A DNA stretch of 64,000 bases from Phytoactinopolyspora mesophila (lineage in GTDB: Bacteria > Actinomycetota > Actinomycetes > Jiangellales > Jiangellaceae), in NCBI RefSeq assembly GCF_010122465.1, contig NZ_WLZY01000014.1, positions 62,001 through 126,000 of the forward strand, read 5' to 3'. Position 1 is the stretch's first letter. Each line of letters opens with the position of its first letter. The translations under genes were made by a program, and so were the position numbers. Shown here one piece after another: positions 4,196 to 29,561 of the stretch. Under the pieces are notes generated by a model. That model was not told where the DNA came from and searched no databases. It saw only the letters and a list, made by a program, of their open reading frames with translations.

Positions 4196-4242
4196 TGCGC
4201 CTCCTCTTTCGGTGATCGACAGCTGGGTTTCGCGGCAGCGGG

Positions 4243-4297
4243 ATCGGCCGGGGCAGCGGGTGCGGGTCGTGCCCAACACCGGCTGCCCCGCCGATCA
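4243..4297 (-). terminator. Strong hairpin between binding-protein and permease genes
   Basis: Two G+C-rich arms (about 4243-4263 and 4276-4297) are almost perfectly complementary; the core is GGGGCAGC pairing with GCTGCCCC. There is no T-tract. The hairpin lies just after the stop of the solute-binding protein gene. Such hairpins commonly protect or partly terminate the mRNA so that more binding protein than permease is made. That role is inferred. Confidence 0.55.
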
Positions 4298-4307
4298 CCG
4301 TGGGGTA

Positions 4308-5848: not shown

Positions 5849-5993
5849 CGTTTCGGCCTTTCGTGAGGGGGCGGGTCGTCGTTGACCGTCATCCAGCGGT
5901 GCTGGCAGCCGGGTCGAAGAGCTTGGTGCCGAGGTTGGTAAGCGGTTTCCGTCGGCGACAGTTCATTGGGCGAGAACGTAGGGGCATTGGTCT

Positions 5994-6671
5994 TCAGTGG
6001 ATCCGCAACGGCTCGGCCGGGAGTATCCGCTGGTCGGCGGGTGGCCCGGCGAGTGTCTGGTCGGCCAGCTTGGCGTCGTTCTCGGCGAAGAAGCGCAGGC
6101 ACAGCCAGGTGCTGAGATAGATCCACGCACCAGCTGAGATCGTCAGCAGGAGCACCGGGAACACGGCCGTGACGAAGGTGGTCGCGGCCAGGACGAACAG
6201 CAGGATGATCGTGGATGCGGGGTATGCGAGCGCGAAGCGGCTCGCCTGCCACGCGTACATCCGCAGTGGCAGGTCGAAATGTGCGTACATCGGGCCCACG
6301 TACGCGGCGATGCCGGCGAGAACGACGAGCGCTGCGAGGGTGGCCAGGCGGGCGGCGCTTGCGTCCGGGCCGAGGCCGGTGAAGAGCGAGTAGTTGCTCC
6401 ACAGGGTCATGGTCACCACCAGCACGGGCAGCATGACGGCGGTGCCGCGGAACAGTTCCCGGCGCCAGATCGTGGCGAAGTCGCGAACCGTTCGGATTCC
6501 GTATCCCTGGATGTAGCGGCGGGTCAGGGTGAATGCCGCGGCAAGGGCGGGTCCGATTCCGAAGATCACGCCGCCGAGGACGGTGAACGCCAACACCAGG
6601 ACGTTGATCAGGGCGCACCATGCGAGCACTGAACAAGTCGAATGCAGGCGGCTGGTCCAATGCTCCGTCAT
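5994..6671 (-). CDS. YesL family (DUF624) membrane protein
   Basis: 225 residues with about five hydrophobic segments, starting SVLAWCALINVLVLAFTVLGG. The GPALAAAFTLTRRYIQGYG region is the DUF624/YesL signature. YesL-type proteins accompany Yes/Lpl oligosaccharide importers in Firmicutes and Actinobacteria. Their biochemical role is unknown, and a membrane accessory to the transporter is the usual guess. ATG 6671 is chosen. A longer frame reaching 6785 would translate through the operator at 6764-6779 and is rejected. The gene precedes the binding-protein gene by 145 nt on the same strand. Confidence 0.82.
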   Translation of the reverse strand: MTEHWTSRLHSTCSVLAWCALINVLVLAFTVLGGVIFGIGPALAAAFTLTRRYIQGYGIRTVRDFATIWRRELFRGTAVMLPVLVVTMTLWSNYSLFTGLGPDASAARLATLAALVVLAGIAAYVGPMYAHFDLPLRMYAWQASRFALAYPASTIILLFVLAATTFVTAVFPVLLLTISAGAWIYLSTWLCLRFFAENDAKLADQTLAGPPADQRILPAEPLRIH

Positions 6672-6763
6672 AGCGTCACACCACCGAACTCGGGAGTGCA
6701 CTGCGAACGGACATCTGCCGGTCACCCCATCGTCGTCGTCGAAAACGTGGCGCTGAATGTAAC

Positions 6764-6779
6764 TTTGAAACGTCTCAAA
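6764..6779 (-). promoter_or_regulatory. LacI-type operator upstream of the yesL-lplABC-yetA genes
   Basis: TTTGAAACGTCTCAAA is a 16-bp near-perfect palindrome with a central CG (one mismatched pair), the classic LacI-family operator form. It lies 93 nt upstream of the yesL-like start, in the gap after the yesU-like gene. A second copy lies upstream of the yesU-like gene. No LacI regulator is encoded in the window. Confidence 0.72.
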
Positions 6780-6797
6780 AGTCAACGACTCCGGTGC

Positions 6798-7469
6798 CTA
6801 CCAGGTCGCGATCCGCAGGTTGGCGTACTCCCCGATCATGGGCGACATCTGCCGGAAACCGACCTTTCCGCCACGAATGGGAGGGCCGCCCACGGTGCCA
6901 TCGTCGTGCCAGTGAAAGACGGTCATGTGGTCGATGGTGAACGTGATGTGGTCGTCACGGATGTCGAGCCGCATGCGATAGGGGCCGGCCGCATCCGACA
7001 CGCCTGGGAGCGGATCGGGCCCCTGGGCGACGAGGTGGAATCCATGGCTTTTGCGCAGGTTGCACGTGTGGAAGCGCCGCTCGGCGGGCCACATGCGCCG
7101 GTAGTACGAGACGTGATAAGCGTCGATGTCCCCGTGGTGATACTGCTCGTACGGCCCGGTGCGCGGTGCCAGCGACGGATCGAACAGGTCGCGCTCGTCG
7201 TGGCCCCTGGCGTGAAAGAACAGGATGCAAAGACCAGGCTCACGGACCGGCCAGAAGTCCCATGAGATCGACACGTCGCCCGGAAGTTCCTCCGGGCACC
7301 ACAACACGATGTTGGCTTGCTGTCCGTCGTCGGGGGACCGAGTGCTTTCCAGGCGGAGCCGTTCCAGCGGAAAGCTGAGCGCGCCATCACCTTCGAGTGT
7401 GAAATGGCTCAGGTCAGCGGCGCTGCGGAGGGGATTGTCATAGAGGACGGTGCGAGGTTCGGTCGGCAT
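6798..7469 (-). CDS. DUF1961 family protein, YesU-like
   Basis: 223 residues, no signal peptide. The region LFFHARGHDERDLFDPSLAPR and the end GKVGFRQMSPMIGEYANLRI match DUF1961, a concanavalin-like beta-sandwich family that includes B. subtilis YesU. These proteins occur in rhamnogalacturonan and pectin loci, where they probably bind or process unsaturated galacturonyl-rhamnose oligosaccharides. No activity has been assigned that I can name. ATG 7469 has GGAG about 9 nt upstream. It is the first gene of the pectin locus, with a LacI-type operator 36 nt upstream. Confidence 0.8.
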   Translation of the reverse strand: MPTEPRTVLYDNPLRSAADLSHFTLEGDGALSFPLERLRLESTRSPDDGQQANIVLWCPEELPGDVSISWDFWPVREPGLCILFFHARGHDERDLFDPSLAPRTGPYEQYHHGDIDAYHVSYYRRMWPAERRFHTCNLRKSHGFHLVAQGPDPLPGVSDAAGPYRMRLDIRDDHITFTIDHMTVFHWHDDGTVGGPPIRGGKVGFRQMSPMIGEYANLRIATW

Positions 7470-7504
7470 GCTCAAACTCCGGTGGGGTGTGCGGTTGGAG
7501 GTTG

Positions 7505-7520
7505 ATTGAGTCGTTTCAAA
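7505..7520 (-). promoter_or_regulatory. LacI-type operator upstream of the yesU-like gene
   Basis: Read on the minus strand this is TTTGAAACGACTCAAT. It matches the operator at 6764-6779 in 14 of 16 positions, with the same central CG. It lies 36 nt before the yesU-like start codon, where a bound repressor would block transcription. The pair implies one sugar-responsive LacI regulator for the whole locus. Confidence 0.7.
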
Positions 7521-7557
7521 CCGACACCCTACTCGCGACTCGACGCAAGAACAGCGT

Positions 7558-7616
7558 CTTAGAACCCGCGCGAATTGGGGAGCCCGGCGACTCCCCCTAT
7601 TCGCGCGGGTTCTTAG
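7558..7616 (-). terminator. Long hairpin terminating fprA
   Basis: Outer arms 7558-7575 and 7599-7616 pair in 17 of 18 positions (AGAACCCGCGCGAAT core), and an inner GGGGAG/CTCCCC stem (7577-7582, 7591-7596) caps the hairpin. It overlaps the fprA stop codon and separates fprA from the pectin locus. It has no clear U-tract, which is common for actinobacterial terminators. Confidence 0.72.
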
Positions 7617-8971
7617 GATTCTCCGTGGGCGATGACCCGAAGCACTGTCTCGACATCGTCGACCACGATCGGATCGCCGCCTTGCGCCTGCCCCAGCTCG
7701 GTCTCGTAGGTTTCCAGGCGGCGCCAGTCGTCCCAGGTGAGCCGGTCGGCTCCACGTGAGGCGAGCAGCAGCTCGACATCCTCCGGCGATCCGCCAGGTG
7801 CGTTTCTGTCCGGCATGTCCGCGAGGATCGACTCCGCGACTTCGGCGGCGTCGGGGCGGTTGGTGCCGATCACGCCCGTGGGCCCCCTGCGCAGCCATCC
7901 GGTGACGTAGATGCCAGCAACCGGCCCGGAATGGTCGACCACACGGCCGTCATCTGACGGCACCGTGCCGGTGGCCTCATCGAACGGCAGCCCTGGAATC
8001 GGGCTGCCCCGGTACCCGATCGCCCGGATCAGCAACTCTGCGGTGAGGTGGAGTGGCCCAGCCGTGCCCGGGCGGGTTGGCTCGAGTTCGACGCCGGCGA
8101 CGGCGGTGTCGCCCAGGATCCGGACCGGCCGGCGCCAGAAGTGGAAGTGGATCCGCCGTGCTGCGTCGGTGGCCGGACGTTGTGCCCATTCGGTGGTGAC
8201 CTTGACGATGGTCTTGGCCTGGCGCCGGGTGTCGATCTCCGCCTGGTCCTCTGCCTCGAGTTTCAAACAGGCGGGATCGATCACGACATCGACGTCGTCC
8301 AGCTTGCCGATTTCGCGTAACTCGGGCGAGGTGAACTTCGCCTGGGCCGGTCCACGGCGGGCGACGACATGAACGTCGCGGAGTGTGCTGGCCTTCAGCG
8401 CGTCGACTACGGCACGCGGCATGCTGGTGGGGACGAGGCTCTCCGCATCGCGGGCCAGGATGCGGGCGATGTCGAGCGCGACGTTGCCGGCGCCGATCAC
8501 GACGGCGGTCCGCAGGTGCTCGGGAAGACTGATCTTCGGCGCTGCCGGGTGTCCGGTGTACCAAGCGACGAGCTCCGATGCCCCGATCGAGCCGGGGAGA
8601 TCCTCGCCGGCGATGTTAAGCCGGCGATCACCTCGCATCCCGGTCGAGACGGCCACCGCGTCGTACGACCGGCGGAGTTCCTCCAGCGTGACGTCCTTGC
8701 CGACGGTGACGTTGCCGAAGTATCGGGCCTCTGTGGTCTCGAAGCCTTGGGCCAGCACTCGGGAGATGCCGCGGGTCTTGGGATGGTCTGGAGCTACGCC
8801 GTAGCGCACCAGGCCGAACGGCGCGGGGGCGGCTTCGAACACGTCGATCCGGCGGAAGGTCCCAGCCTCGAGCAACTCGGCCAGCAAGTACAAGCCGGCC
8901 GGGCCAGCGCCGATGATCGCCGCGGTACGCGCCTTCGCGTGCTCCATTTCCTCATCCAACCAGATGTCCAT
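7613..8971 (-). CDS. fprA: NADPH-ferredoxin reductase FprA
   Basis: 452 residues, the usual length of mycobacterial-type FprA (adrenodoxin reductase-like). The FAD-binding GAGPAG motif is at residues 21-26 and an NADP-binding IGAGNVALDIARIL motif falls near residue 160. PFGLVRYGVAPDHPKTR is diagnostic, and the C-terminal YVTGWLRRGPTGVIGTNRPD contacts FAD. The enzyme passes electrons between NADPH and ferredoxins in the cytoplasm. The start is ATG 8971; an alternative ATG at 8947 would remove eight residues. It stands alone between the pectin and arsenite loci. Confidence 0.94.
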   Translation of the reverse strand: MDIWLDEEMEHAKARTAAIIGAGPAGLYLLAELLEAGTFRRIDVFEAAPAPFGLVRYGVAPDHPKTRGISRVLAQGFETTEARYFGNVTVGKDVTLEELRRSYDAVAVSTGMRGDRRLNIAGEDLPGSIGASELVAWYTGHPAAPKISLPEHLRTAVVIGAGNVALDIARILARDAESLVPTSMPRAVVDALKASTLRDVHVVARRGPAQAKFTSPELREIGKLDDVDVVIDPACLKLEAEDQAEIDTRRQAKTIVKVTTEWAQRPATDAARRIHFHFWRRPVRILGDTAVAGVELEPTRPGTAGPLHLTAELLIRAIGYRGSPIPGLPFDEATGTVPSDDGRVVDHSGPVAGIYVTGWLRRGPTGVIGTNRPDAAEVAESILADMPDRNAPGGSPEDVELLLASRGADRLTWDDWRRLETYETELGQAQGGDPIVVDDVETVLRVIAHGES

Positions 8972-14737: not shown

Positions 14738-16216
14738 TTAAGTGCGGCTGCCGCGGGCTCGTTGCAGTACTCGGCGCTGCCAGCGGTCCATCCTGGTACG
14801 CAGCGGGCTCGCCAAGAACTCCCCGAGCGTCACGCCGGCGGCCAGCGCCAGCCCCACGCCTAGCGCGCCGAACAACATGCCCGCACCGGCCACGAGGTCG
14901 TCGGCATCGACCATCGTGAACATCGACTGGTAGATGAGCAGTCCGGGCAGCAGCGGGGTGATACCGCAGACCGAGACGGCCAGCGCGGGGGCGCCCAGGC
15001 GCTCGGCCACTCCGGCGGCGAGGACACCAACCACCAGCGCGGCGACGAAGGACGAGCCGGCTGGTCCTAGGCCGAAGTCGTTCACGATGAGAAACACCCC
15101 AGCGGAGACAGCGCCTACCGCGGAAGCCACCCCGACCGTGCGGAGGCGACTGTATGACGCCAGTCCCCACGCGCCCGCGATGACACCCCCGGCCAGAACC
15201 TGAACCCCGAAGGGTGTGCTCAACGCACTGTGATCGGTGATGTGCAGAGGCACACCGATCCGGTGACCGAGATCCAGGACGAAGCCGACGCCGACGACGA
15301 TCCCGATGGTGTAGAGCGCGACCTCGAATGATCGTGCCGCGGCGGTGAGCGGGAAGCCCGAGATGGCGTCTTCCGCGGCGCCGACCAGGGAAAGCCCCGC
15401 GAGAAGGACGACGATGCCGGCTGCCACGACGAGCGACGGCGCGATCAGCTGCGGTGACCAATCGAAAGTGGAACGGCCCCAGTTCAGGAAGAGCGCTACC
15501 CCCGTGGCAATGCCGGCACCGATGGCCTGCTGGAACATGTACGGCAAGCCTTTGTGCCGCAGCCAGCGCAGCGTCCGGTCGATGATCATCGTGGTGGCCG
15601 CGGCGATCGCGGCGGCCAGCCAGGAGCCATTCAGCAGGATCGCCACCCCGGCGGCCATGGCGCCGAGCGCGAGCGTGACCACCCACCGCCGGTATGGGTG
15701 CGGCGTCTTGCGGATCTCATCCAGCCGCTCGCGTGCCCCATTCAGGTCGAGTTCTCCGCGGTCAACCGCGTCGACCATCTCCATGAGGTCGGCCAGGCGG
15801 CTGTAGTCCGCTGTGCGAACACTGATGACGCGCACCTTGGTGATCGGATCGTCGTCTCGGTCGATGGACACGGTGATCGACACGAACGTGATGTCCACCT
15901 GGCAAGACGTGACGCCGAACCCCGCGGCGAGCCGGAGCAGGGCGGCCGTTGTGTCGGCGACCGGCGCCCCGGTGGTGATCAGTGCTTCGCCGGTGCGCAG
16001 GACCAGATCGAGTACCGATCGCTCGACCTCGGCCGCGAGCCCGCTGTTGGGCGGCGGCAGCGCGATGGGGACGGTGGGCGGTCCGGAACCGGTGAAAGCG
16101 CGGCGTGCGCGGTCGCGGAGGGGGCGGCCGAACCGGTCGACCGACTTGTTGGAGGAGGCCGACGCCGCGGGAGGGGGAGGCGGAGGCGGACCAGCCGGTG
16201 GATAAGACTTACTCAC
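14738..16216 (-). CDS. Threonine/serine exporter family protein (ThrE/DUF1212)
   Basis: 492 residues. A Pro-rich N-terminus (PPAGPPPPPPPAAS) is followed by the soluble ThrE/DUF1212 domain (VERSVLDLVLRTGEALITTGAPV, then DITFVSITVSIDRD) and about ten membrane segments from residue 185 onward. ThrE exports threonine and serine in Corynebacterium. The substrate here is inferred. It is transcribed alone, convergent with pstB and divergent from the nitrate cluster. Confidence 0.86.
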   Translation of the reverse strand: MSKSYPPAGPPPPPPPAASASSNKSVDRFGRPLRDRARRAFTGSGPPTVPIALPPPNSGLAAEVERSVLDLVLRTGEALITTGAPVADTTAALLRLAAGFGVTSCQVDITFVSITVSIDRDDDPITKVRVISVRTADYSRLADLMEMVDAVDRGELDLNGARERLDEIRKTPHPYRRWVVTLALGAMAAGVAILLNGSWLAAAIAAATTMIIDRTLRWLRHKGLPYMFQQAIGAGIATGVALFLNWGRSTFDWSPQLIAPSLVVAAGIVVLLAGLSLVGAAEDAISGFPLTAAARSFEVALYTIGIVVGVGFVLDLGHRIGVPLHITDHSALSTPFGVQVLAGGVIAGAWGLASYSRLRTVGVASAVGAVSAGVFLIVNDFGLGPAGSSFVAALVVGVLAAGVAERLGAPALAVSVCGITPLLPGLLIYQSMFTMVDADDLVAGAGMLFGALGVGLALAAGVTLGEFLASPLRTRMDRWQRRVLQRARGSRT

Positions 16217-16348
16217 AGCCCACCACAGTATGTGCTGAAGGCGGCATCGTACTACCGATCCGCGGGGTGCTGAAGATCAAGTATGACCTGCGAAGACGAT
16301 CCGTCTCACAGAGCCGGAGCGCGCCGGGTGAGAAGACTGTGACATCCG

Positions 16349-16379
16349 CGCGTTACGCATGCGACGGGCTTGTAACGCG
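16349..16379. promoter_or_regulatory. Inverted repeat upstream of the nitrate assimilation cluster
   Basis: CGCGTTAC (16349-16356) and GTAACGCG (16372-16379) form a perfect 8-bp inverted repeat with a 15-nt spacer, about 113 nt before the transporter start. The GTTAC/GTAAC half sites recall GlnR elements, but their 20-bp spacing does not fit the usual GlnR box. A nitrogen-control operator is plausible. Confidence 0.4.
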
Positions 16380-16491
16380 ACATCCATATCGTCGTTTCCA
16401 ACCGGGCCATTCGAACATTTCGTCCGGCTTCCCGGGCCGCAGTGTCGCCGCCACGGAAATAGCTCCAGCATCTGGCTCAGCGGAGGCGATG

Positions 16492-17934
16492 ATGACGCAG
16501 ACCCTCATTCGGGAACATCCGGCCGCGCGCACCAGACGCGGTTCGCGTTGGATCGAGCACTGGGACCCCGAGAATCCAGAGTTCTGGGAGCGCCACGGCA
16601 AGAAGGTAGCGCGGCGCAACCTGATCGTCTCGGTCTTCGCGGAGAACATCGCGTTCTCCGTCTGGCTGCTCTGGAGCATCTCGGCCGCTGTTCTGGTCGC
16701 ACACTACAACTTCGGATTCAGCGCGGCTCAATTGTTCTTCCTGGTAGCCGTGCCCAACCTGATCGGTGCGACGCTGCGGATCCCGTACACCTTCGCGGTG
16801 CCGAAATTCGGCGGCCGGAACTGGACGGTGGTCAGCGGCCTGTTCCTGCTGTTGCCCACGCTCTTGCTCGTAGTGGCGGTGAGCAACCCCTCGACGCCGT
16901 ACTGGGCGTTCCTACTCATCGCCGCGACTGCTGGCGTCGGCGGCGGGAACTTCGCGTCCAGCATGACGAACATCAGCTTCTTCTACCCGGACCGGAAGAA
17001 GGGTCTGGTGCTCGGCCTCAATGCGGCGGGCGGCAACATCGGCGTCAGCATCATCCAACTCGGGCTGCCGGTGATCGTCGGCGCAGGCGGACTGTTCGGT
17101 CTGGTCGCGGCGTCGGCCGGCGGTGTCGATCTGGCTCGCGCCGGCTACGTGTGGGGGCTGCTGGCCCTCGTTTCGGCCGGCTGTGCATGGTTCTTCATGA
17201 ACAACCTGTCGGTTTCGCTCGCGAGCTTCAGCGAGCAGATCAAAGTGGTACGGCACAAGCACACCTGGGTGATGTCCTGGCTCTATGTCGGGACGTTCGG
17301 CTCGTTCATCGGCTACTCGGCGGCGTTCCCGTTGCTCATCGGACTGCAGTTCCCGCATGTCAGCATCGCGAACTTCGCCTTCCTCGGAGCGCTGATCGGA
17401 TCGGTGGCCCGCCCGTTCGGTGGCTGGCTCGCCGACCGCCTCGGTGGCGCCCGGGTCACGTTCTGGAACTTCGTGGCGATGGCAGCCGGCACCGTGGTGG
17501 TCATCACGGCCGTGAACTCGGGGTCGTGGCCACTGTTCCTCGGAGCCTTCCTCCTGGTGTTCGTCACCACGGGTATCGGCAACGGATCCACGTACCGCAT
17601 GATCCCGATGATCTTCCAGCGGCAGGCGGTGCTGGAAGCGGAGGGCGCGGCGACCGAGACACGCGATGCGGCGCTGGCCCGGGGCCGGACCGAGGCCGCG
17701 GCCGTCATCGGGCTGTCGTCGGCGGTTGGAGCCTTCGGCGGCTTTCTCGTCGTCGCGACCTTCGGTGTGCTGGAGCTGCTGAGTGACGGCGAGGTGGCGA
17801 CCGGCAGCATAGCCACCGCGTTCGGGCTGTTCCTGGTCTTCTACGCGACGTGCATCCTGCTGACCTGGTGGCACTACCGGCGGCGGACGTTCATGATCCA
17901 GCGTGCGCCCAACCTCTCCATGGTCGACATCTAG
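16492..17934 (+). CDS. MFS nitrate/nitrite transporter, NarK/NasA type
   Basis: 480 residues, about 12 membrane segments. The first nitrate signature AGVGGGNFASSMTNISFFYP and the second, GLNAAGGNIGVSIIQLG, are clear. ATG 16492 lies 5 nt after GGAGG; an ATG one codon earlier is too close to it. The long hydrophilic N-terminus WIEHWDPENPEFWERHGKKVARRNL is typical of actinobacterial NarK proteins. It brings nitrate into the cell for the reductases encoded next, and the following gene starts 12 nt after the stop. Confidence 0.94.
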   Translation: MTQTLIREHPAARTRRGSRWIEHWDPENPEFWERHGKKVARRNLIVSVFAENIAFSVWLLWSISAAVLVAHYNFGFSAAQLFFLVAVPNLIGATLRIPYTFAVPKFGGRNWTVVSGLFLLLPTLLLVVAVSNPSTPYWAFLLIAATAGVGGGNFASSMTNISFFYPDRKKGLVLGLNAAGGNIGVSIIQLGLPVIVGAGGLFGLVAASAGGVDLARAGYVWGLLALVSAGCAWFFMNNLSVSLASFSEQIKVVRHKHTWVMSWLYVGTFGSFIGYSAAFPLLIGLQFPHVSIANFAFLGALIGSVARPFGGWLADRLGGARVTFWNFVAMAAGTVVVITAVNSGSWPLFLGAFLLVFVTTGIGNGSTYRMIPMIFQRQAVLEAEGAATETRDAALARGRTEAAAVIGLSSAVGAFGGFLVVATFGVLELLSDGEVATGSIATAFGLFLVFYATCILLTWWHYRRRTFMIQRAPNLSMVDI

Positions 17935-17946
17935 GAACGTCTCCGG

Positions 17947-20138
<2,192 letters not shown>

Positions 20139-20142
<4 letters not shown>

Positions 20143-21683
20143 ATATGAGCAAGAAGATCGTCGTTGTCGGACACGGCATGGCGGGGGCGCGCTTCGTCCA
20201 GGAGCTACGCACACGTGACCCGCTGCGGCAGTTTCACGTGACGGTCCTCGGCGCGGAGCGCGAAGCCGCGTACAACCGGGTGCTCTTGTCATCCGTGCTG
20301 GCGGGTTCGCTGACTCCGGAGGACACCGAGATGGTCCCGTCGGCCTGGTACGCCGCCGAGGACATCGATCTCCAGCTGGGTGTCGAGGTGGAGCACATCG
20401 ACCGGAAACGCGGGCGGGTGCTGACCAGCGAGGGACGATACGTCAGCTACGACCATCTGGTGCTCGCCACCGGCAGCCGTCCGTGGGTGCCCCCGATCGA
20501 GGGTGTGGTGGACGGCGACGAGCTGGATCGCGACGTGGCGGTCTTCCGCACGTTGCAAGATTGCCGCGACATCATGGCCAGGCTGAGTTCGTCCCGCGGG
20601 AACAGCCGCCCGGACGGACCGCGGCGCGCCGTAGTGCTGGGGGGCGGGCTGCTGGGACTCGAAGCGGCACGCGGGCTGGCTGGACGTGGCGTCGAGGTCG
20701 AGGTGGTCCACCCCGTGAACCGGCTGATGGAACGCCAGCTGGACCTTGACGCCGGGCGAGTTCTGGAGCGGACGCTGGGCAAGGTCGGGGTGCGGGTCCG
20801 GCTGGAGGCGCAGGCGAAGGCCTTCGATCATGTCGCCGGCCAGCGGGTTCTTGTCCTCGACGACGGCACCAGGGTCGCGGCCGACCTGCTGATCGTCGCC
20901 TGTGGTGTGCGCCCGAACGCGGGGCTGGCGCGGGCGGCCAGATTGCGCGTGGACCGGGCCGTCGTCGTCGACGACCAAATGACCTCGGTGAGTGATCCGC
21001 GGATCCATGCGATCGGCGAATGCGCCCAACACGACGGTCAGGTGTACGGCCTCGTGGCGCCCGCGTGGGAACAGGCCGGCGTGCTGGCGGACGTGCTCAC
21101 CGGCGGCGCTGCCCGTTACCGCGGCTCCCAGCTGGTCACCCGGCTGAAGGCGGCCGACGTCGACTTGGCCGCCATGGGCGAGACCGACGTCAGCGACATC
21201 CCCGACGCGACCGACGAGGGGCTCGAAGTGCTCCGCTTCGCCGACCCCACTCGCGGCTTCTACCAGAAGATCGTCATCCGAGACGACAGGATCACCGGCG
21301 CCATCATGCTCGGGGGCGCCGAGACCGTCGGGACCGTCACCCAGCTCTTCGACCGGGCCGGCCGGATCCCGGCCGACCGAAGGGCGCTGATCTTCCCCGG
21401 GGTCGCGGACGGGGTCGCGGTGACAGATCCAGCTGATCTCGCCGACGACTCGGTGATCTGCCGCTGCAACACCGTGACGGCCGGTCAGATCCGCCGGGCC
21501 TGCGCCGACGGAGCGGGCACCGTCGCCGAGATCGCGATGTGCACCCGCGCGACGACAGGATGCGGAGGCTGCCGCGACGATGTCGCGGGTCTCGTCGCGG
21601 CCACTGCGGGAACCGCCGGACCTTCCGGCACCAACGCTGCCGGAAGAGCGGAGACAACCGAACTCGTGGAGGTACCGGCATGA
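20139..21683 (+). CDS. FAD-dependent electron-transfer subunit of nitrate reductase (NasB-like, NirB N-terminal homologue)
   Basis: 514 residues. An FAD Rossmann motif GHGMAG near the N-terminus, an NAD motif VLGGGLLGLEAARGL near residue 165, and a C-terminal BFD-like [2Fe-2S] domain (ICRCNTVTAGQIRRAC...CTRATTGCGGC) give the layout of the front half of NirB without a siroheme domain. It very likely passes NAD(P)H electrons to the nitrate reductase. GTG 20139 overlaps the reductase stop (GTGA) and has GGGAGG 7 nt upstream. The end overlaps nirB by 4 nt. Confidence 0.88.
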
Positions 21684-24214
21684 GCCAGGACGCGACACAC
21701 CGGCTGGTGGTGGTCGGCAACGGAATGGTCGGCCAACGGCTCGTGGAGGCGGTCCGGGAACGGGACGTGGACCGTCGCTGGCGGATCACCGTTCTGGGCG
21801 AAGAGCCGCGACCGGCTTACGATCGCGTGGCGCTGACGTCGTACCTGACCGGGACCAGCGAGGAAGAACTCTGCGTGGTGCCGGACGGTTGCTACGACGA
21901 CGGCTGCGTCCTGCACGTCGGCGAGGCAGTCGCATCGATCGATCGGCACGCGAAGACGGTGACCACGGCGGCCGGTCGCGTCGTCGGCTACGACGCCCTC
22001 GTCCTGGCCACGGGATCGTCGCCGTTCGTGCCTCCGGTTCCCGGTGCGGACCTGGACGGTTGCTTCGTCTACCGCACCATCGACGACCTGGACGCGATCC
22101 GGGAACGTGCGGGCGTCGCTGGGACGGGCGTCGTGATCGGCGGTGGTCTCCTGGGGCTGGAAGCGGCCAACGCGCTGCGTTCGCTGGGTGTCGACACCCA
22201 CGTCGTCGAGTTCGCGCCTCGCCTGATGCCGGCGCAGGTCGACCAGGGCGGCGGGGAGATGCTGCGCCGCAAGGTCGAGGATCTCGGGCTGAGTGTGCAT
22301 ACGGGCACGGCCACCGAACGGATCGAGCAGCTGGACGGCGGCCGGCTGCGGTTGGTGTTCGCCGACGCGGATCCGATCGAGGTGGGCATGGTCGTCTTCT
22401 CCGCCGGCATCCGGCCACGTGACCAGCTGGCTCGAGACGCGGGCTTGGACGTCGGCGAGCGCGGCGGCATCGTCGTCGACGACGGCTGCCGCACCTCCGA
22501 TCCGGCGATCTGGGCTGTCGGGGAGTGTGCCCTGGCGGGCGGGAAGATCTACGGCCTGGTGGCGCCGGGCTACGAGATGGCCGAGGTCGCGGCCGACCGG
22601 GTAGTCGGTGGGGCGGCTGTGTTCACCGAATGTGACACGTCGGCCAAGCTGAAGCTGCTCGGGGTGGATGTCGCCAGCTTCGGTGACGCACACGGCGCGG
22701 CGGCGGGCGCGCTCGAGGTGGTCTACGCCGATCCGGTCGGCGGTGTGTACAAGAAGCTGGTGGTGACCGACGACGCCTCGACGGTGCTGGGTGGCGTGCT
22801 GGTGGGGGACGCCTCGCTGTATGCCGCGTTGCGGACCATGGTCGGCCGGCCGCTGCAGGATGCACCGGAACAGCTGCTGATGGCCGGTCCGGCCGCGTCG
22901 GGTCTGGACGACACCGCCCAGGTGTGCTCGTGCCAGAACGTCAGCGCCGGGGCGATCCGCTCGGCGATTGGTGACGAGGGCTGCTGTGATGTCGCGTCGG
23001 TCAAGGCGTGCACCAAGGCGGGAACCGTGTGCGGGAGCTGTGTGCCGCTCATCAAGACGTTGCTGGCACAGTCCGGCGTCGAGGCGAGCACCGCGCTGTG
23101 TGAGCATTTCGACCTGAGCCGGGCCGAGCTGTTCGATGTCATCCGGGCCACGGGCATCCGCACGTTCAGCGAGATCATCACCCGGCACGGCCGGGGCCGC
23201 GGCTGCGACATCTGCAAGCCGGCCGTGGCGTCGATCCTGGCCAGCCTGGGATCCGGGCATATTCTCGACGGCGAGCAGGCGGCGCTGCAGGACACCAACG
23301 ACCGGTTCCTGGCGAACATCCAGCGCAACGGCACGTACTCGGTGGTACCCCGGGTTCCCGGAGGTGAACTCACTCCGGAAAAGCTCATCGTGATCGGTGA
23401 GGTCGCACGCGACTTCGGTCTGTACACCAAAATCACCGGTGGCCAGCGCATCGACATGTTCGGCGCCCGGGTGGACCAGCTGCCGGCCATCTGGCGGCGG
23501 CTGGTGGATGCCGGGTTCGAGTCGGGCCACGCCTACGGCAAGGCGCTGCGGACGGTGAAATCCTGCGTGGGCTCCACGTGGTGCCGGTTCGGAGTGCAGG
23601 ACTCGACGTCGCTGGCCATCATGCTGGAGCTGCGATACCGCGGGCTGCGGTCACCGCACAAGATCAAGGCCGGTGTCTCGGGATGTGCCCGGGAGTGTGC
23701 GGAGGCGAGGGGGAAAGACTTCGGGGTGATCGCCAGCGAGACCGGCTGGAACCTCTATCTCGGTGGGAACGGCGGTTTCACGCCCCGGCATGCGGAGCTG
23801 TTCGCCTCGGATCTCGGCAGTGACGAGCTCGTGCGGCTGATCGACCGCTTCCTCATGTTCTACATCCGTACCGCCGACCGGCTGCAGCGGACGTCGGCCT
23901 GGCTGGAGGCGCTCAACGACGAGCACGGCGACGGGCTGGGCTACCTGCGCAGGGTGATCGTCGACGACGAGCTCGGCATCTGCGGCGATCTCGACGCCGC
24001 GATGTATGCCCATGTCGACACCTATGCCGACGAATGGGCGGCGGTCCTGGAGGACGAAGAGAAACTCAGCAGATTCGTGTCCTTCGTGAATGCGCCGGAC
24101 GTGCCGGACCCGAGCATCCAGTTCGTCACCGAGCGCGACCAGATCCGTCCCGCCGACCAGCCCGCGGATCCGGTGCCGATCGCGGGCCCGACACTCGAGG
24201 TGATGCGCCGATGA
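21680..24214 (+). CDS. nirB: Nitrite reductase [NAD(P)H] large subunit NirB
   Basis: 844 residues, the full family length. In order: FAD/NAD oxidoreductase domains (VVVGNGMVGQRLVEAVRER; IGGGLLGLEAANALR), BFD-like [2Fe-2S] domain (CSCQNVSAGAIRSAI...CGSCVP), ferredoxin-like half domain (YTKITGGQRIDMFGAR), and the siroheme/[4Fe-4S] domain with CVGSTWCRFG and GCARECAEARGKDFG. It reduces nitrite to ammonium with six electrons. ATG 21680 overlaps the preceding stop (ATGA) and has GGAGG 8 nt upstream. It also overlaps nirD by 4 nt. Confidence 0.97.
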   Translation: MSQDATHRLVVVGNGMVGQRLVEAVRERDVDRRWRITVLGEEPRPAYDRVALTSYLTGTSEEELCVVPDGCYDDGCVLHVGEAVASIDRHAKTVTTAAGRVVGYDALVLATGSSPFVPPVPGADLDGCFVYRTIDDLDAIRERAGVAGTGVVIGGGLLGLEAANALRSLGVDTHVVEFAPRLMPAQVDQGGGEMLRRKVEDLGLSVHTGTATERIEQLDGGRLRLVFADADPIEVGMVVFSAGIRPRDQLARDAGLDVGERGGIVVDDGCRTSDPAIWAVGECALAGGKIYGLVAPGYEMAEVAADRVVGGAAVFTECDTSAKLKLLGVDVASFGDAHGAAAGALEVVYADPVGGVYKKLVVTDDASTVLGGVLVGDASLYAALRTMVGRPLQDAPEQLLMAGPAASGLDDTAQVCSCQNVSAGAIRSAIGDEGCCDVASVKACTKAGTVCGSCVPLIKTLLAQSGVEASTALCEHFDLSRAELFDVIRATGIRTFSEIITRHGRGRGCDICKPAVASILASLGSGHILDGEQAALQDTNDRFLANIQRNGTYSVVPRVPGGELTPEKLIVIGEVARDFGLYTKITGGQRIDMFGARVDQLPAIWRRLVDAGFESGHAYGKALRTVKSCVGSTWCRFGVQDSTSLAIMLELRYRGLRSPHKIKAGVSGCARECAEARGKDFGVIASETGWNLYLGGNGGFTPRHAELFASDLGSDELVRLIDRFLMFYIRTADRLQRTSAWLEALNDEHGDGLGYLRRVIVDDELGICGDLDAAMYAHVDTYADEWAAVLEDEEKLSRFVSFVNAPDVPDPSIQFVTERDQIRPADQPADPVPIAGPTLEVMRR

Positions 24215-24666
24215 CAACCGACCTGGAAGCCCTCCACAGCGTCCTGCACAATGTGGCCCCGAACGCTCCCTCTGCAGGACACAACCAGTGGCACGCAGTG
24301 TGCGAGGACGAGCGGCTGGCGCCGGAGCGCGGTGTCGCCGCGCTGGTGGACGGTCAGCAGATCGCCGTGTTCCGGACCTACGGCGGCGACGTGTACGCCC
24401 TGTCCAACCGGGATCCATTCTCTGGAGCGTACGTGCTGTCGCGGGGGATCATCGGAACCCGCGGAGATATCCCGACCGTGGCCTCGCCCATGCACAAGGA
24501 GGTATTCGACCTCCGTACGGGGGAGTGCCTGGACAACCCGGTCATCGGTGTGCAGGCGTTCGGCGCCCGCGTGCGGGAAGGACGGATCGAGGTGCTTGTT
24601 CCGGGCACGACGCCTCCGCGCCAGGTCGATGCCACCGGCCGCGGGTCCGATGTGGCGGTCTCATGA
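24211..24666 (+). CDS. nirD: Nitrite reductase small subunit NirD
   Basis: 151 residues with a Rieske-like fold (RGVAALVDGQQIAVFRTYGGDVYALSNRDP; SPMHKEVFDLRTGECLDNP) that lacks the Cys-X-His cluster ligands, as is normal for NirD. It completes the NirBD enzyme. Its ATG overlaps the nirB stop and its stop overlaps the next start, both by 4 nt. Confidence 0.94.
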   Translation: MTTDLEALHSVLHNVAPNAPSAGHNQWHAVCEDERLAPERGVAALVDGQQIAVFRTYGGDVYALSNRDPFSGAYVLSRGIIGTRGDIPTVASPMHKEVFDLRTGECLDNPVIGVQAFGARVREGRIEVLVPGTTPPRQVDATGRGSDVAVS

Positions 24667-25811
24667 CGGCGGCCTTGCCGTTGGAGGGATTCACGGTGGC
24701 GCTGACGGCGGCACGTCGCCGGGAGGAGCTCGGTGCGTTGCTGGAGCGACGCGGCGCACGGGTCGTCCAGGCTCCGGCGATCCGGATCGTTCCGCTGGAC
24801 GACGACGCGGAGTTGTTGGCGGCCACCAAGGAGTGTGTGGATCACCCGCCCGACATCGCGGTCGCCACCACGGGCATCGGGTTCCGCGGCTGGATGGAGG
24901 CGGCCGACGGCTGGGGCCTCGGTGAGCCGCTACTGGACCGGCTGGGCTCGGCCACCCTGCTGGCTAGGGGGCCGAAAACCCGCGGCGCGATCCGTGCTGC
25001 TGGTCTGGTCGACGACTGGTCTCCGGCGTCGGAGTCTTCCGCCGAGGTTCTCGACCACCTGTTGGCGCAGGACTTGCAAGGCAGGCGAATCGCCGTGCAG
25101 TTGCATGGCGAGCCCTTGCCGGACTTCACCGACGCGCTGGAAGCGGCCGGCGCCACGGTGGTGCCCGTGCCCGTGTACCGCTGGGTGCTGCCGGATGATG
25201 TCGCGCCGCTGGAACGTCTCATCGAATCAGTCGTGTCGCGCGGCGTCGACTGTGTGGCATTCACCAGCGCGCCGGCCGTGGCGAGTTTGATGTCCCTGGC
25301 CGAGAAGGCCGGCATGACCGAAGAGATCGTTTCGGCGTTCCGCGCTGACGTCGTGCCCGCGTGCGTGGGCCCCGTGACGGCGGCCCGCCTGGAGCGAATC
25401 GGCATCACGACCACCCAGCCGCAGCGGGCCCGGCTGGGTGCGCTGGTCCGGGAGATCGTCGCGGAGTTGCCCGCGCGCTGCCGTACCTTGCGAGTGGCCG
25501 GGCACGATATCCAGATCCGTGGTCACGCGGTCCTGGTCGACGCGACGGCGCGCGAGCTCCCGCCTGGCCCGATGGCTGTGCTGCGCGAGCTGGTCCGGCG
25601 GCCCGGCGTGGTGGTCTCCCGGGCCGAGCTGCTCGGCGTGCTTCCCGGTGGCGGGAGCGATGAGCATGCCGTCGAGATGGCGATCACCCGGCTACGGGGT
25701 GTACTCGGTTCGAAGGTGGTCCAGACCGTGGTGAAGCGGGGCTACCGGTTGGCGTACGAGCCGGAGTCGGCCGCTGACAAGTACGGCGAGCCGATCAACC
25801 TTGGTGGTTGA
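24663..25811 (+). CDS. Uroporphyrinogen-III synthase fused to an OmpR-type DNA-binding domain
   Basis: 382 residues. Residues 1-265 form the HemD domain (FTVALTAARRREELGALLERRG; PVPVYRWVLP; CVAFTSAPAV). Residues about 285-370 form a winged helix of the OmpR/PhoB kind (ARELPPGPMAVLRELVRRPG, then EMAITRLRGVLGSKVVQTVVKRGYRL). There is no receiver domain. The enzyme makes uroporphyrinogen III, the precursor of NirB's siroheme. The DNA-binding domain suggests it also regulates, perhaps this cluster. Similar fusions occur beside nitrite reductase genes in mycobacteria (from memory, Rv0260c). ATGA overlap with nirD. Confidence 0.9.
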   Translation: MTAALPLEGFTVALTAARRREELGALLERRGARVVQAPAIRIVPLDDDAELLAATKECVDHPPDIAVATTGIGFRGWMEAADGWGLGEPLLDRLGSATLLARGPKTRGAIRAAGLVDDWSPASESSAEVLDHLLAQDLQGRRIAVQLHGEPLPDFTDALEAAGATVVPVPVYRWVLPDDVAPLERLIESVVSRGVDCVAFTSAPAVASLMSLAEKAGMTEEIVSAFRADVVPACVGPVTAARLERIGITTTQPQRARLGALVREIVAELPARCRTLRVAGHDIQIRGHAVLVDATARELPPGPMAVLRELVRRPGVVVSRAELLGVLPGGGSDEHAVEMAITRLRGVLGSKVVQTVVKRGYRLAYEPESAADKYGEPINLGG

Positions 25812-25846
25812 GGGATTGGTGTCGCTATGGCGACACCAATCCCTCA
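25809..25846 (+). terminator. Perfect 17-bp stem after the HemD-fusion gene
   Basis: Arms 25809-25825 (TGAGGGATTGGTGTCGC) and 25830-25846 are perfectly complementary around a TATG loop, and the left arm includes the TGA stop codon. It has no U-tract. It probably ends or attenuates the nitrate operon before the chelatase gene 29 nt further on. Confidence 0.75.
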
Positions 25847-25874
25847 GCCACGTGTGGTTTGGCATGCTGGGATC

Positions 25875-26570
25875 ATGAATGAGAGTGTCCGGCCCTTAGT
25901 CGCAGTCGCACACGGCACGCGGGACCCGGAAGGGCCCGTCGTGTTGGAGAAGCTGCTCGAAGAAGTCCGCACCCGGGTACCGGGCGTCGATGTCAGGATC
26001 GCCTACGTCGACGTCATTGGGCCGATGCTCGATGAAGTCCTTGCCGAGGTGCCGGGCACGCCGGTGGTGGTCCCCATGTTCCTGGCCTCGGGCTACCACG
26101 TGCGTTCCGACGTACCCGCAGCCGTGGAATCGACTGGTGGGCGCGCCGTCGTGACGCCGGCCCTCGGTCCGGACGATGCCGTTGTCGAGGCTGTAGCCGA
26201 CCGCCTGCGTTCGGAGGGAGAACTGCCTGATGCCGTGGTGATGGCCGCCGCGGGTTCGGCGGATCGCAACGCCCTCCGTGAGGTGGAGGTGGCTGCCGCG
26301 AAGCTGGCCGCGGCTCTCGATCGGGAGGTGGTGGCGGCATACGTCACCACGGCCGAGCCGTCGGTCGGCGATGCCGTTCGCACTCTGCGTGACGCCGGAT
26401 TCAAGCGGGTGGGGGTCGCGTCCTATCTGCTGGCGCCCGGGCTTTTTCTCCGCCGGCTGGCCGATGTGGGTGCCGACGTCGTTGCCCCGCCCATCGGGAT
26501 TCATCCTGCGGTCGTCGATCTCGTGGCTCACCGCTACCGGGAGGCCATGCGGGATTCCACCCAGGCCTGA
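25875..26570 (+). CDS. Sirohydrochlorin chelatase, CbiX/SirB family
   Basis: 231 residues with two CbiX-like halves. The N-terminal VAVAHGTRDPEG has the metal-binding His, and PMFLASGYHVRSDVP supplies the second. The second half begins near VVMAAAGSADRNALREVE. In this setting it most likely inserts Fe(II) into sirohydrochlorin to give siroheme for NirB; a cobaltochelatase role is less likely. ATG 25875 is preferred over an upstream frame that would start inside the terminator hairpin. Confidence 0.9.
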   Translation: MNESVRPLVAVAHGTRDPEGPVVLEKLLEEVRTRVPGVDVRIAYVDVIGPMLDEVLAEVPGTPVVVPMFLASGYHVRSDVPAAVESTGGRAVVTPALGPDDAVVEAVADRLRSEGELPDAVVMAAAGSADRNALREVEVAAAKLAAALDREVVAAYVTTAEPSVGDAVRTLRDAGFKRVGVASYLLAPGLFLRRLADVGADVVAPPIGIHPAVVDLVAHRYREAMRDSTQA

Positions 26571-26943: not shown

Positions 26944-28158
26944 TTATTTAGCTGTGAGAACTCGGGAGAGTGCGTCGATGACCATGTCGATCTCCTCGGG
27001 CGTTATGACCAAAGGCGGCGCCAATCGGATGGTCGAACCGTGGGTGTCCTTCGCCAGAATTCCCTCGGCGAGAAGCGCCTCGCATGCCGCGCGCCCGGTC
27101 ATCAGATCCGGATCGATATCTATCCCCGCCCACAGGCCGCGGCCCCGGACATCGATCATGCCCTTGTCGGCCAGCCGGCCCAACCCTTCGAACAGGTGCT
27201 GCCCCAGCTCGGTGGCAGTGCGCTGCCAGTCACCGGTCGTCAGCATGTCGACGACGGCCCGGCCGGCGGCACATGCCAGCGGGTTGCCGCCGAAGGTGCT
27301 GCCATGCTCGCCAGGATGGATGACACCGAGCACGTCGGCGTCGCCGATGACCGCCGACACCGGCACGATCCCGCCGCCGAGTGCCTTGCCCAGAATGTAG
27401 AGATCGGGAACGACATCCTCATGCTCGCAAGCGAACGTGGTGCCGGTCCTGCCCAACCCGGATTGGATCTCGTCTGCGATGAACAACATCTGTCGTGCGT
27501 CGCAGAGCTGGCGCACCTGCGACAGATATCCAGCAGGCGGAACAACGACGCCGGCTTCGCCTTGGATTGGCTCGATGAGTACGGCCACAGTAGTGTCGTC
27601 GATCGCGTCGGCCAAGGCGGGCGGGTTGCCATATTCGACTACCCGGAAGCCCGGCGTAAAGGGACCGAAATTAGTGCGGGCGACCGGATCTGTCGAGAAG
27701 CTCACGATACTGATGGTCCGGCCGTGGAAATTGCCGTCCATGACGACGATCGTGGCTTGATCTTCTGGTACGCCTTTTACTTCATAACCCCATTTACGCG
27801 CCACCTTCAGCGCGGTTTCGACGGCCTCTGCTCCGGTGTTCATCGGCAGCACGAGATCCTTGCCGGCGAGATCGGCGAGTTCCCTCGCGAACGGGCCGAG
27901 CACGTCGTGGTGGAAAGCGCGGCTGGTCAGCGTCACACGCTCGAGCTGTGCACGTACCGCGTCAACGATGCGCGGATGCCGATGGCCGAAGTTCACCGCG
28001 GAATACGCGGCCAGGCAATCGAGGTATCGGCGGCCGTCCACGTCGGTCACCCACGAACCGTCACCCTCGGAGATCACGACGGGCAGCGGGTGGTAGTTGT
28101 GGGCCGTGCTGCGCTCGGTCAGGGAAATAAGCTCGGCGCTGCGCTGAAGATCGGTCAT
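26944..28158 (-). CDS. rocD: Ornithine--oxo-acid (ornithine delta-) aminotransferase
   Basis: 404 residues, class-III PLP aminotransferase. MNTGAEAVETALKVARKWGYEVKG and VVMDGNFHGRTISIVSFSTDP are typical of ornithine aminotransferases. FIADEIQSGLGRTG holds the cofactor Asp, and ILGKALGGGIVPVSAVIG has the PLP Lys. It converts ornithine plus 2-oxoglutarate to glutamate-5-semialdehyde and glutamate. It starts 15 nt after the stop of the guanidine-modifying enzyme gene, and both face away from an Lrp regulator, which indicates an arginine catabolic unit. Confidence 0.94.
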   Translation of the reverse strand: MTDLQRSAELISLTERSTAHNYHPLPVVISEGDGSWVTDVDGRRYLDCLAAYSAVNFGHRHPRIVDAVRAQLERVTLTSRAFHHDVLGPFARELADLAGKDLVLPMNTGAEAVETALKVARKWGYEVKGVPEDQATIVVMDGNFHGRTISIVSFSTDPVARTNFGPFTPGFRVVEYGNPPALADAIDDTTVAVLIEPIQGEAGVVVPPAGYLSQVRQLCDARQMLFIADEIQSGLGRTGTTFACEHEDVVPDLYILGKALGGGIVPVSAVIGDADVLGVIHPGEHGSTFGGNPLACAAGRAVVDMLTTGDWQRTATELGQHLFEGLGRLADKGMIDVRGRGLWAGIDIDPDLMTGRAACEALLAEGILAKDTHGSTIRLAPPLVITPEEIDMVIDALSRVLTAK

Positions 28159-28173: not shown

Positions 28174-28977
28174 CTACGTGTGTAGTTCAAGGGTGGCGCA
28201 TTTGACTCCGCCGCCGGCCTTGAGTAGCTCAGAAACATCGACCGGGACCGGAATGAACCCTCTTTCGGCGAGCTGATCGGCCATCTTCTTGGCCTGCGCC
28301 GCCATGACGACGTTCTGCCCATCGCTCGTCGCGTTCAGGCCAAGGTGCATGGCATCCTCTTCGCCGACGACGATTGCGTCCGGGTAGAGCGCGTCGAGTT
28401 GCCGGCAGCTGGCGGCAGAGAACGCCGGTGGGAAGTACGCGATCGTGTGTTCATCGAGCACGGTCAGCGCGGTGTCGAGATGATAGAAGCGAGGATCGAC
28501 CAGGTCGAGCGCGATAACCGGCACACCGAAGACGGAAGCGATCTCCGCCAGTGCCTCCGGGCTGGAACGGAATCCGGTCCCCACCAGGATGTGCTTGCCG
28601 GTCCAGGCGAGGTCGCCCTCGCCTTCGTTGATCGCCTGTGGGACATGTACGTCGAATCCGCGGCTGGTCAGCCATTCCCGGTGAACAGGCGCTTCTGGAG
28701 TGCGGACTTCTTCGCGGAACCGGGCGCCCAGAGCCCGGCGCCCGAGGACGAACGCTCCGTTTGCGGTGAACACCATGTCGGGCAGGCCCGGAACGGGATC
28801 GATGACATCGACTCGATGACCGAGACCCGTGTAGGCCTCGCGCAAGGTCGTCCATTGCGCCACCGCTAAGTCCCTGTCCACCGGCTGCCCCGGGTCCATC
28901 CAGGGGTTGATGGCGTAGGTCACGGCGAAATGCGTTGGGGGGCACATGACGTAGTGCCGCGATTCGATGCTGGTCAC
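28174..28977 (-). CDS. Guanidine-modifying enzyme, probable arginine dihydrolase (or dimethylargininase)
   Basis: 267 residues, pentein fold. Candidate catalytic residues are Glu118 in NEGEGD, His166 in RFYHLDT and Cys260 in GGVKCATLEL. Automatic pipelines usually name it DdaH. However it carries Asn24 (INPWM) and Asn73 (PDMVFTANGAF), the positions I recall as Asn22 and Asn71 of cyanobacterial arginine dihydrolase (ArgZ/AgrE), where deiminases and DDAH carry an acidic residue at the second site. Overall wording (MCPP...YAINPWM, GFRS, ELLKAGGGVKC) also follows ArgZ. That enzyme gives ornithine, the substrate of RocD encoded 15 nt downstream. Fold certain, substrate inferred. Confidence 0.85.
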   Translation of the reverse strand: MTSIESRHYVMCPPTHFAVTYAINPWMDPGQPVDRDLAVAQWTTLREAYTGLGHRVDVIDPVPGLPDMVFTANGAFVLGRRALGARFREEVRTPEAPVHREWLTSRGFDVHVPQAINEGEGDLAWTGKHILVGTGFRSSPEALAEIASVFGVPVIALDLVDPRFYHLDTALTVLDEHTIAYFPPAFSAASCRQLDALYPDAIVVGEEDAMHLGLNATSDGQNVVMAAQAKKMADQLAERGFIPVPVDVSELLKAGGGVKCATLELHT

Positions 28978-29003
28978 GTGAAGAACTTAAGCGGCGCCGG
29001 TGG

Positions 29004-29028
29004 TGCAACGCGATACTCGTCTGTTGCA
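29004..29028. promoter_or_regulatory. Possible Lrp-type operator between divergent genes
   Basis: TGCAAC (29004-29009) and GTTGCA (29023-29028) form an inverted repeat with a 13-nt spacer, midway between the divergent start codons of the guanidine-modifying enzyme and the Lrp regulator. The position suits autoregulation and arginine-responsive control. The arms are short. Confidence 0.35.
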
Positions 29029-29111
29029 TACATGGGGGCGATTTCTTGCGCATTCTGATGCTGACACGCTCGAATCTTGCGTGGGCGAGCCGGTTGCTGG
29101 ACGATGTCCCA

Positions 29112-29561
29112 GTGGAACTCGACCAGATCGACCGCCGCATCATCCAACTTCTGATGGCGGACGGGCGGGCCAGTTACGGCACGATCGGCGCTGAGGTCAA
29201 CCTTTCCGCTCCGGCGGTCAAGCGGCGGATCGACCGGCTCCGCGACCGCGGCGTGATCAGTGGGTTCACCGTGCGGGTTGACCCCGCCGCGACGGGCTGG
29301 ACCACCGAGGCTTACGTCGAACTGTTCTGTAACCGGAGCACGTCCGGTGCGGAGGTCCTCCGGCGGGTGGAGACATATCCCGAGGTGGTCGAGGCATTCA
29401 CCGTGACCGGCGATGCCGACACGTTGCTGCATGTCTTCGCTGCCGACATGCAGCACTTCGAGCGCGTTCTGAGTCAGGTCTCGGCCGAGCCGTTTGTAGC
29501 GCGAACCCGTAGTGTCCTGGTGTTGTCGCCGCTGTTGCGCCGGGATTTTCTCAGTATGTGA
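29112..29561 (+). CDS. Lrp/AsnC-family transcriptional regulator
   Basis: 149 residues from GTG 29112. The DNA-binding part is ELDQIDRRIIQLLMADGRASYGTIGAEVNLSAPAVKRRIDRL, followed by an RAM-type ligand-binding domain (AYVELFCNRSTSGAEVLRRV...VTGDADTLLHVFA). Longer starts (TTG 29046, ATG 29058) would add residues that Lrp proteins do not have. It is divergent from the arginine-catabolic pair and is the likely arginine- or ornithine-sensing regulator of it, as ArgP/BkdR-type Lrp members do elsewhere. Confidence 0.88.
   Translation: MELDQIDRRIIQLLMADGRASYGTIGAEVNLSAPAVKRRIDRLRDRGVISGFTVRVDPAATGWTTEAYVELFCNRSTSGAEVLRRVETYPEVVEAFTVTGDADTLLHVFAADMQHFERVLSQVSAEPFVARTRSVLVLSPLLRRDFLSM

Follow-up and report, generated by a model that had tools for sequence, protein, structure and literature searches.

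A probable ArgZ-type arginine dihydrolase, annotated as dimethylargininase, is predicted to feed RocD in Phytoactinopolyspora mesophila

Introduction

Which reaction is catalyzed by the product of a gene that carries the name dimethylargininase and lies immediately upstream of an ornithine aminotransferase gene? This question is raised by a locus of Phytoactinopolyspora mesophila located in the window, the whole stretch of 64,000 nucleotides that was analyzed (contig NZ_WLZY01000014.1, positions 62,001 to 126,000). A related question comes from Mycobacterium tuberculosis, in which the Rv2319c-rocE-rocD-Rv2323c cluster, with the regulator gene Rv2324 beside it, is induced more than 20-fold by arginine (Hampel et al., 2015; PMC4569260). 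Knockout of Rv2323c impaired growth on arginine and lowered the 13C label in proline from 49.8% to 6.4%, M+5 ornithine arises from arginine in the absence of a known arginase, and in Mycobacterium smegmatis rocD is required for growth on arginine (PMC4569260). The reaction of Rv2323c was left open by these authors, who proposed that a still unknown arginase, or else an amidinotransferase, might be involved (PMC4569260), and a 2024 review keeps the DDAH name for this protein (PMC11008464).

Results

Organization of the locus

The features of the locus are as follows (positions in the window; those of single codons were computed from the ORF start):

28174..28977, minus strand: predicted ArgZ-type arginine dihydrolase (NCBI name dimethylargininase, NF045659), 267 aa, GTG start
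28759..28761, minus strand: Asn73 codon, counterpart of ArgZ Asn71 (dihydrolases have Asn, deiminases Asp)
28906..28908, minus strand: Asn24 codon, counterpart of ArgZ Asn22
28198..28200, minus strand: Cys260 codon, counterpart of catalytic ArgZ Cys264
26944..28158, minus strand: rocD, ornithine aminotransferase, 404 aa (TIGR01885), 15 bp downstream of the dihydrolase gene and on the same strand
29046..29561, plus strand: divergent Lrp/AsnC-type regulator (ORF; real start probably near 29100)
28978..29045, no strand assigned: intergenic stretch between the divergent genes, presumed operator/promoter from the gene layout

Both neighbors named in an earlier note on this DNA, an ornithine aminotransferase gene and a divergent Lrp gene, are present. 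RocD passes the ornithine aminotransferase model TIGR01885 (496 bits; cut-off 378.4), and the conserved part of the Lrp/AsnC regulator starts at about residue 20-25. A promoter and terminator scan gave no match above chance. The genome is 99.5% complete and contains one NF045659-type family member.

A gap of about 370 bp separates the 3' end of rocD from a nitrate/nitrite assimilation island (16105-26570). By ORF reading, the genes of the island code for a NarK-like transporter, a nitrate reductase, an FAD protein, NirB, NirD, a HemD-HTH protein, and a CbiX/SirB-like protein. Such an island lies about 2-5 kb from rocD in loci L167 and L168, the linkage is partly kept in L166, and no island was found within about 9 kb of the roc locus in L163-L165. 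Arginine co-induces nirBD with the roc cluster in M. tuberculosis (PMC4569260).

The protein resembles ArgZ in its active-site residues

Comparison of the window protein with proteins of solved structure by phmmer gave as best matches ArgZ (Sll1336) from Synechocystis (E 3.5e-48) and AgrE (Alr4995) from Anabaena (E 1.6e-42), bacterial DDAH coming next (E 9e-7). Family-profile scores were 227 bits for ArgZ/AgrE vs 45 bits for DDAH. Since identity to ArgZ extends to 38% over 255 residues at that E value, this likeness is not a product of chance. In the phmmer alignment, Asn24, Asn73, and Cys260 lie on Asn22, Asn71, and Cys264 of ArgZ, the last two columns being those occupied by Ser in the N71S (6juz) and C264S (6jv1) crystals. 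The pairing of both Asn residues with those of ArgZ, given in the earlier note, was in this way confirmed, and Asn73 showed no misalignment. Residues Glu118, His166, and Cys260 sit on the catalytic Glu, His, and Cys, and are invariant in 141 family members. Across these homologs Asn73 was found in 140/140 and Asn24 in 139/139 of those with a letter at the position, a pattern that is biased in 80 of the loci, found with a motif including AN; the unbiased test is given by the 30-genome and 17-genome sets, which were found without that motif and agree with it.

Position 73 of a common alignment is Asn in the window protein (FTAN), in ArgZ and AgrE, and in Escherichia coli AstB (VANA), an established dihydrolase. 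The same position is Asp in the arginine deiminase (ADI) of this genome (FTRD) and in three DDAHs, L148-L150 (FVED), so that the claim of an acidic residue in deiminases holds for the comparators tested. All these proteins have His166, Cys260, and Arg137 in common, and the position of Glu118 is Asp in the three DDAHs. An Asn at the Asn71 position may not by itself be enough to confer dihydrolase chemistry.

Some ArgZ-like proteins depart from this pattern. One of them, L153 (G031:C74, about 16801-17583; 33% identical), has Asp at the position of Asn71 (FSGDAG) and, therefore, the fold does not force Asn. It would be a natural candidate deiminase within the ArgZ-like group, useful for testing the Asn rule. 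Two others, L154 and L155 (G053:C34 and G029:C98; about 39% identical), carry Phe where Glu118 would stand and MN for AN, and possibly have a different chemistry or are inactive.

An AlphaFold model of the window protein (pLDDT 95.4) has ArgZ as its closest solved fold (Z 40.6, 1.3 Å over 261 residues), followed by DDAH (Z 31.3), AstB (28.8), and ADI (28.1). The check by structure model that the earlier note had called for thus gave superposition on ArgZ at 1.2-1.3 Å. Sharing a fold with ArgZ does not prove the reaction. In a phylogenetic tree, which carries a long-branch warning, the family groups with ArgZ/AgrE and apart from DDAH and ADI.

The dimethylargininase name and the DDAH alternative

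NCBI at present names the protein dimethylargininase, as the earlier note had it: the window protein scores 409 bits against NF045659 (DdahMtb), above the cut-off of 300. It reaches 193 bits against the bifunctional ArgZ model and 192 of 450 bits against the cyanobacterial-type arginine dihydrolase model NF052232; remaining below this narrow equivalog cut-off does not speak against a dihydrolase activity. The reverse pattern was obtained with a real actinobacterial DDAH, L148, which scores 387 bits against NF045660 and 74 bits against NF045659. Because the scores of the two proteins run in opposite ways, NF045659, judged by its sequences, is an ArgZ-like family bearing a DDAH name, and this name is probably wrong for the whole family.

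A true dimethylarginine dimethylaminohydrolase would convert methylated arginines into citrulline and methylamines. Such an activity would be in keeping with the NF045659 score and with the fold, which is common to both kinds of enzyme, but the window protein reaches no more than 88 and 26 bits with the other two models of that name (NF045658/NF045660), compared to 192 bits for arginine dihydrolase, and FTAN replaces the FVED motif. Moreover, a citrulline producer would not feed RocD, whose gene is linked to this one; genome G039 contains the separate DDAH gene L148 besides a rocD-linked family gene; and Rv2323c acts on arginine flux (PMC4569260). We consider a DDAH activity very unlikely.

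Arginine metabolism in the rest of the genome

Two P5C dehydrogenases over cut-off are encoded in the genome, and they complete the predicted route from arginine through ornithine and glutamate semialdehyde to glutamate. No canonical arginase over cut-off was found in 60 genomes (this one and 59 relatives), and no urease alpha subunit in this genome. Two divergent ureohydrolase-family proteins, L002 (G000:C2:120808) and L003 (G000:C11:36949), were rejected as canonical arginases (52 and 74 of 227.6 bits); on reading their sequences, both have Cys for the usual first-motif His (GGDC and SGDC, respectively), and L002 is also devoid of DAHxD. An ornithine cyclodeaminase was likewise rejected as partner, since the sole PF02423 gene lies elsewhere in the genome, unlinked, and the named model that fits it best gives 119 of 322 bits.

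The genome also codes for a full-length arginine deiminase on another contig (L004; G000:C4:235877-236956), with no transcarbamylase or carbamate kinase gene adjoining. A carbamate kinase-like gene adjoins, by sequence reading only, a cyanuric-acid-hydrolase-like gene and not arginine genes, and an ADI pathway through it was rejected because of this neighbor. The earlier note had described a route without citrulline, urease, or arginase. The absence of a urease alpha subunit and of a canonical arginase bears this out; since ADI and carbamate kinase-like genes exist elsewhere in the genome, "without citrulline" is true of the dihydrolase-RocD route and not of the cell, which may have a different way of forming citrulline.

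These genes bear on a second alternative, in which the window protein would be an arginine deiminase whose site is atypical, and its citrulline would be converted to ornithine by a transcarbamylase before entering the RocD reaction. A canonical ADI, with Asp at this position, is already encoded in the genome, whereas the residue of the window protein is Asn, as in ArgZ and AstB; the window protein also scores 20 of 489 bits against the arcA model TIGR01078, below the level for an arginine deiminase. The superfamily is common to both, and a carbamate kinase-like gene does occur in the genome; however, the cluster contains neither transcarbamylase nor kinase, and the gene neighboring the kinase-like one is not related to arginine. 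We consider an unusual deiminase very unlikely as well.

Gene neighborhood across genomes

The rocD gene is the next gene, on the same strand, in 40 of the 47 genomes found without a motif search (26/30 and 14/17), which upholds RocD as the partner of the enzyme; it also adjoins four members of an outer group (37-41% identical). A divergent Lrp gene was present, with no rocD within 6 kb, at L039, L043-L045, L059, L060, L062, L068, L070, and L076 (Nocardia, Amycolatopsis, and relatives), and some family members stand alone, with no recognized ornithine-using neighbor at the locus.

Some paralogs without rocD were located near genes for flavin Lys/Orn monooxygenases (L042, L055, L064, and L072) and for formyltransferases (L028, L042, and L046), a pair of enzymes known from hydroxamate pathways. 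Ornithine would be the substrate at these loci. In 80 loci, four monooxygenases were observed near family genes vs 0.36 expected from genomic density (P 5e-4). Monooxygenase or formyltransferase neighbors in loci split by the presence of rocD gave 5/42 vs 0/38 (Fisher p 0.056, weak), so the comparison with genomic background is the stronger of the two. The common thread among the neighbors of the family appears to be the consumption of ornithine, a role that in cyanobacteria falls to the fused cyclodeaminase.

Locus L055 (Streptacidiphilus carbonis, 3141-8220) codes for a thioesterase-like protein, an arginine deiminase, an ArgZ-like protein, and a Lys/Orn monooxygenase. By its gene content, it looks like a locus of natural-product type in which the genes of two guanidine hydrolases adjoin each other.

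Discussion

Proposed reaction and pathway

We consider it very probable that the window protein is a stand-alone arginine dihydrolase of the ArgZ type that feeds RocD. The earlier note had already preferred this activity over that of a dimethylargininase, a preference supported, at the level of sequence, by Asn73, the ArgZ fold match, and the RocD partner. The steps proposed here draw on knowledge of the guanidine-modifying superfamily and on the titles of PDB entries, which refer to a covalent intermediate in N71S, the substrate in C264S, and a product complex. Cys260 would attack the guanidinium carbon of L-arginine, assisted by Glu118 and His166, to give a thiouronium intermediate, whose first hydrolysis would release ammonia. 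With Asn73 in place of the Asp of deiminases, the intermediate would be hydrolyzed a second time, and the products would be L-ornithine, CO2, and two ammonium. RocD, presumably encoded in the same operon, would convert ornithine into glutamate semialdehyde (P5C), which could either undergo oxidation to glutamate by a P5C dehydrogenase of the genome or be reduced to give proline. Arginine presumably acts through the divergent Lrp/AsnC protein to turn the operon on.

The substrate could also be an arginine derivative (e.g., N-acylated or hydroxylated), the route from free arginine being then a minor one. AstB, acting on succinylarginine, and NnhA, acting on nitroimidazole, belong to the superfamily and give this idea some ground; against it, the ArgZ positions tested are retained, Asn24 included, no acyltransferase gene is present in the cluster, and RocD takes free ornithine. 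We regard it as the least probable of the readings weighed, and prefer free arginine as the substrate of the dihydrolase.

Implications for mycobacteria and other Actinomycetota

Two Mycobacterium loci, L066 and L078, contain a divergent lrp gene followed by the family gene, rocD, and an amino-acid permease gene, and score 471 bits against NF045659; these are the mycobacterial sequences scored here, the data on Rv2323c being those of PMC4569260. An arginine dihydrolase would directly explain the mycobacterial 13C labeling (PMC4569260). It seems likely, with less assurance than for the window protein, that the NF045659 family, including Rv2323c, consists of arginine dihydrolases forming with RocD an arginase- and urea-free pathway across Actinomycetota and, in some lineages, supplying ornithine for hydroxamate-type natural products. 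If so, the name of a widespread family would be corrected, the missing first enzyme of mycobacterial arginine use would be supplied, and arginine use by bacteria without arginase would be explained. The question raised on Rv2323c (PMC4569260) would be reduced to one simple assay. Arginine dihydrolase would then be a module rather than a cyanobacterial speciality, combined with a cyclodeaminase by fusion, with RocD, and possibly with hydroxylases of ornithine. Enzymes of this kind have been described in cyanobacteria; the stand-alone, RocD-paired actinobacterial branch appears to be undescribed in the literature searched; this search, with subscription papers outside its scope, found no assayed actinobacterial arginine dihydrolase.

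Comparison with known systems

The window protein shares with ArgZ and AgrE (38 and 36% identity, respectively) the fold, the catalytic Glu, His, and Cys, the residues equivalent to Asn22 and Asn71, and the GG-x-KC end motif. In ArgZ and AgrE the dihydrolase domain is fused to an ornithine cyclodeaminase, which leads to proline, whereas the window protein ends at 267 aa with no such domain and its ornithine is predicted to pass to a separate RocD, leading to glutamate semialdehyde. With the mycobacterial Rv2323c-rocD-rocE / Rv2324 cluster, the locus has in common the NCBI family and the order of divergent regulator, enzyme, and rocD (PMC4569260); it differs in that a permease gene lies beside the mycobacterial cluster and none adjoins the window genes, and in that rocD is intact in the window but frameshifted in M. 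tuberculosis. DDAHs of the DdaH type (NF045658/NF045660) share the fold and the catalytic Cys and His, and are about 32% identical where they align, but they have Glu-Asp at the site, where the window protein has Ala-Asn, and no Asn24 region. The RocF-RocD route of Bacillus also leads from arginine through ornithine to glutamate semialdehyde, although it makes use of an arginase, manganese, urea, and urease, while the route predicted here would employ a cysteine hydrolase releasing ammonium directly. Finally, the N-succinylarginine dihydrolase AstB, about 23% identical, is a longer protein acting on a succinylated substrate, and shares with the window protein Ala-Asn at the site and the dihydrolase chemistry predicted for it.
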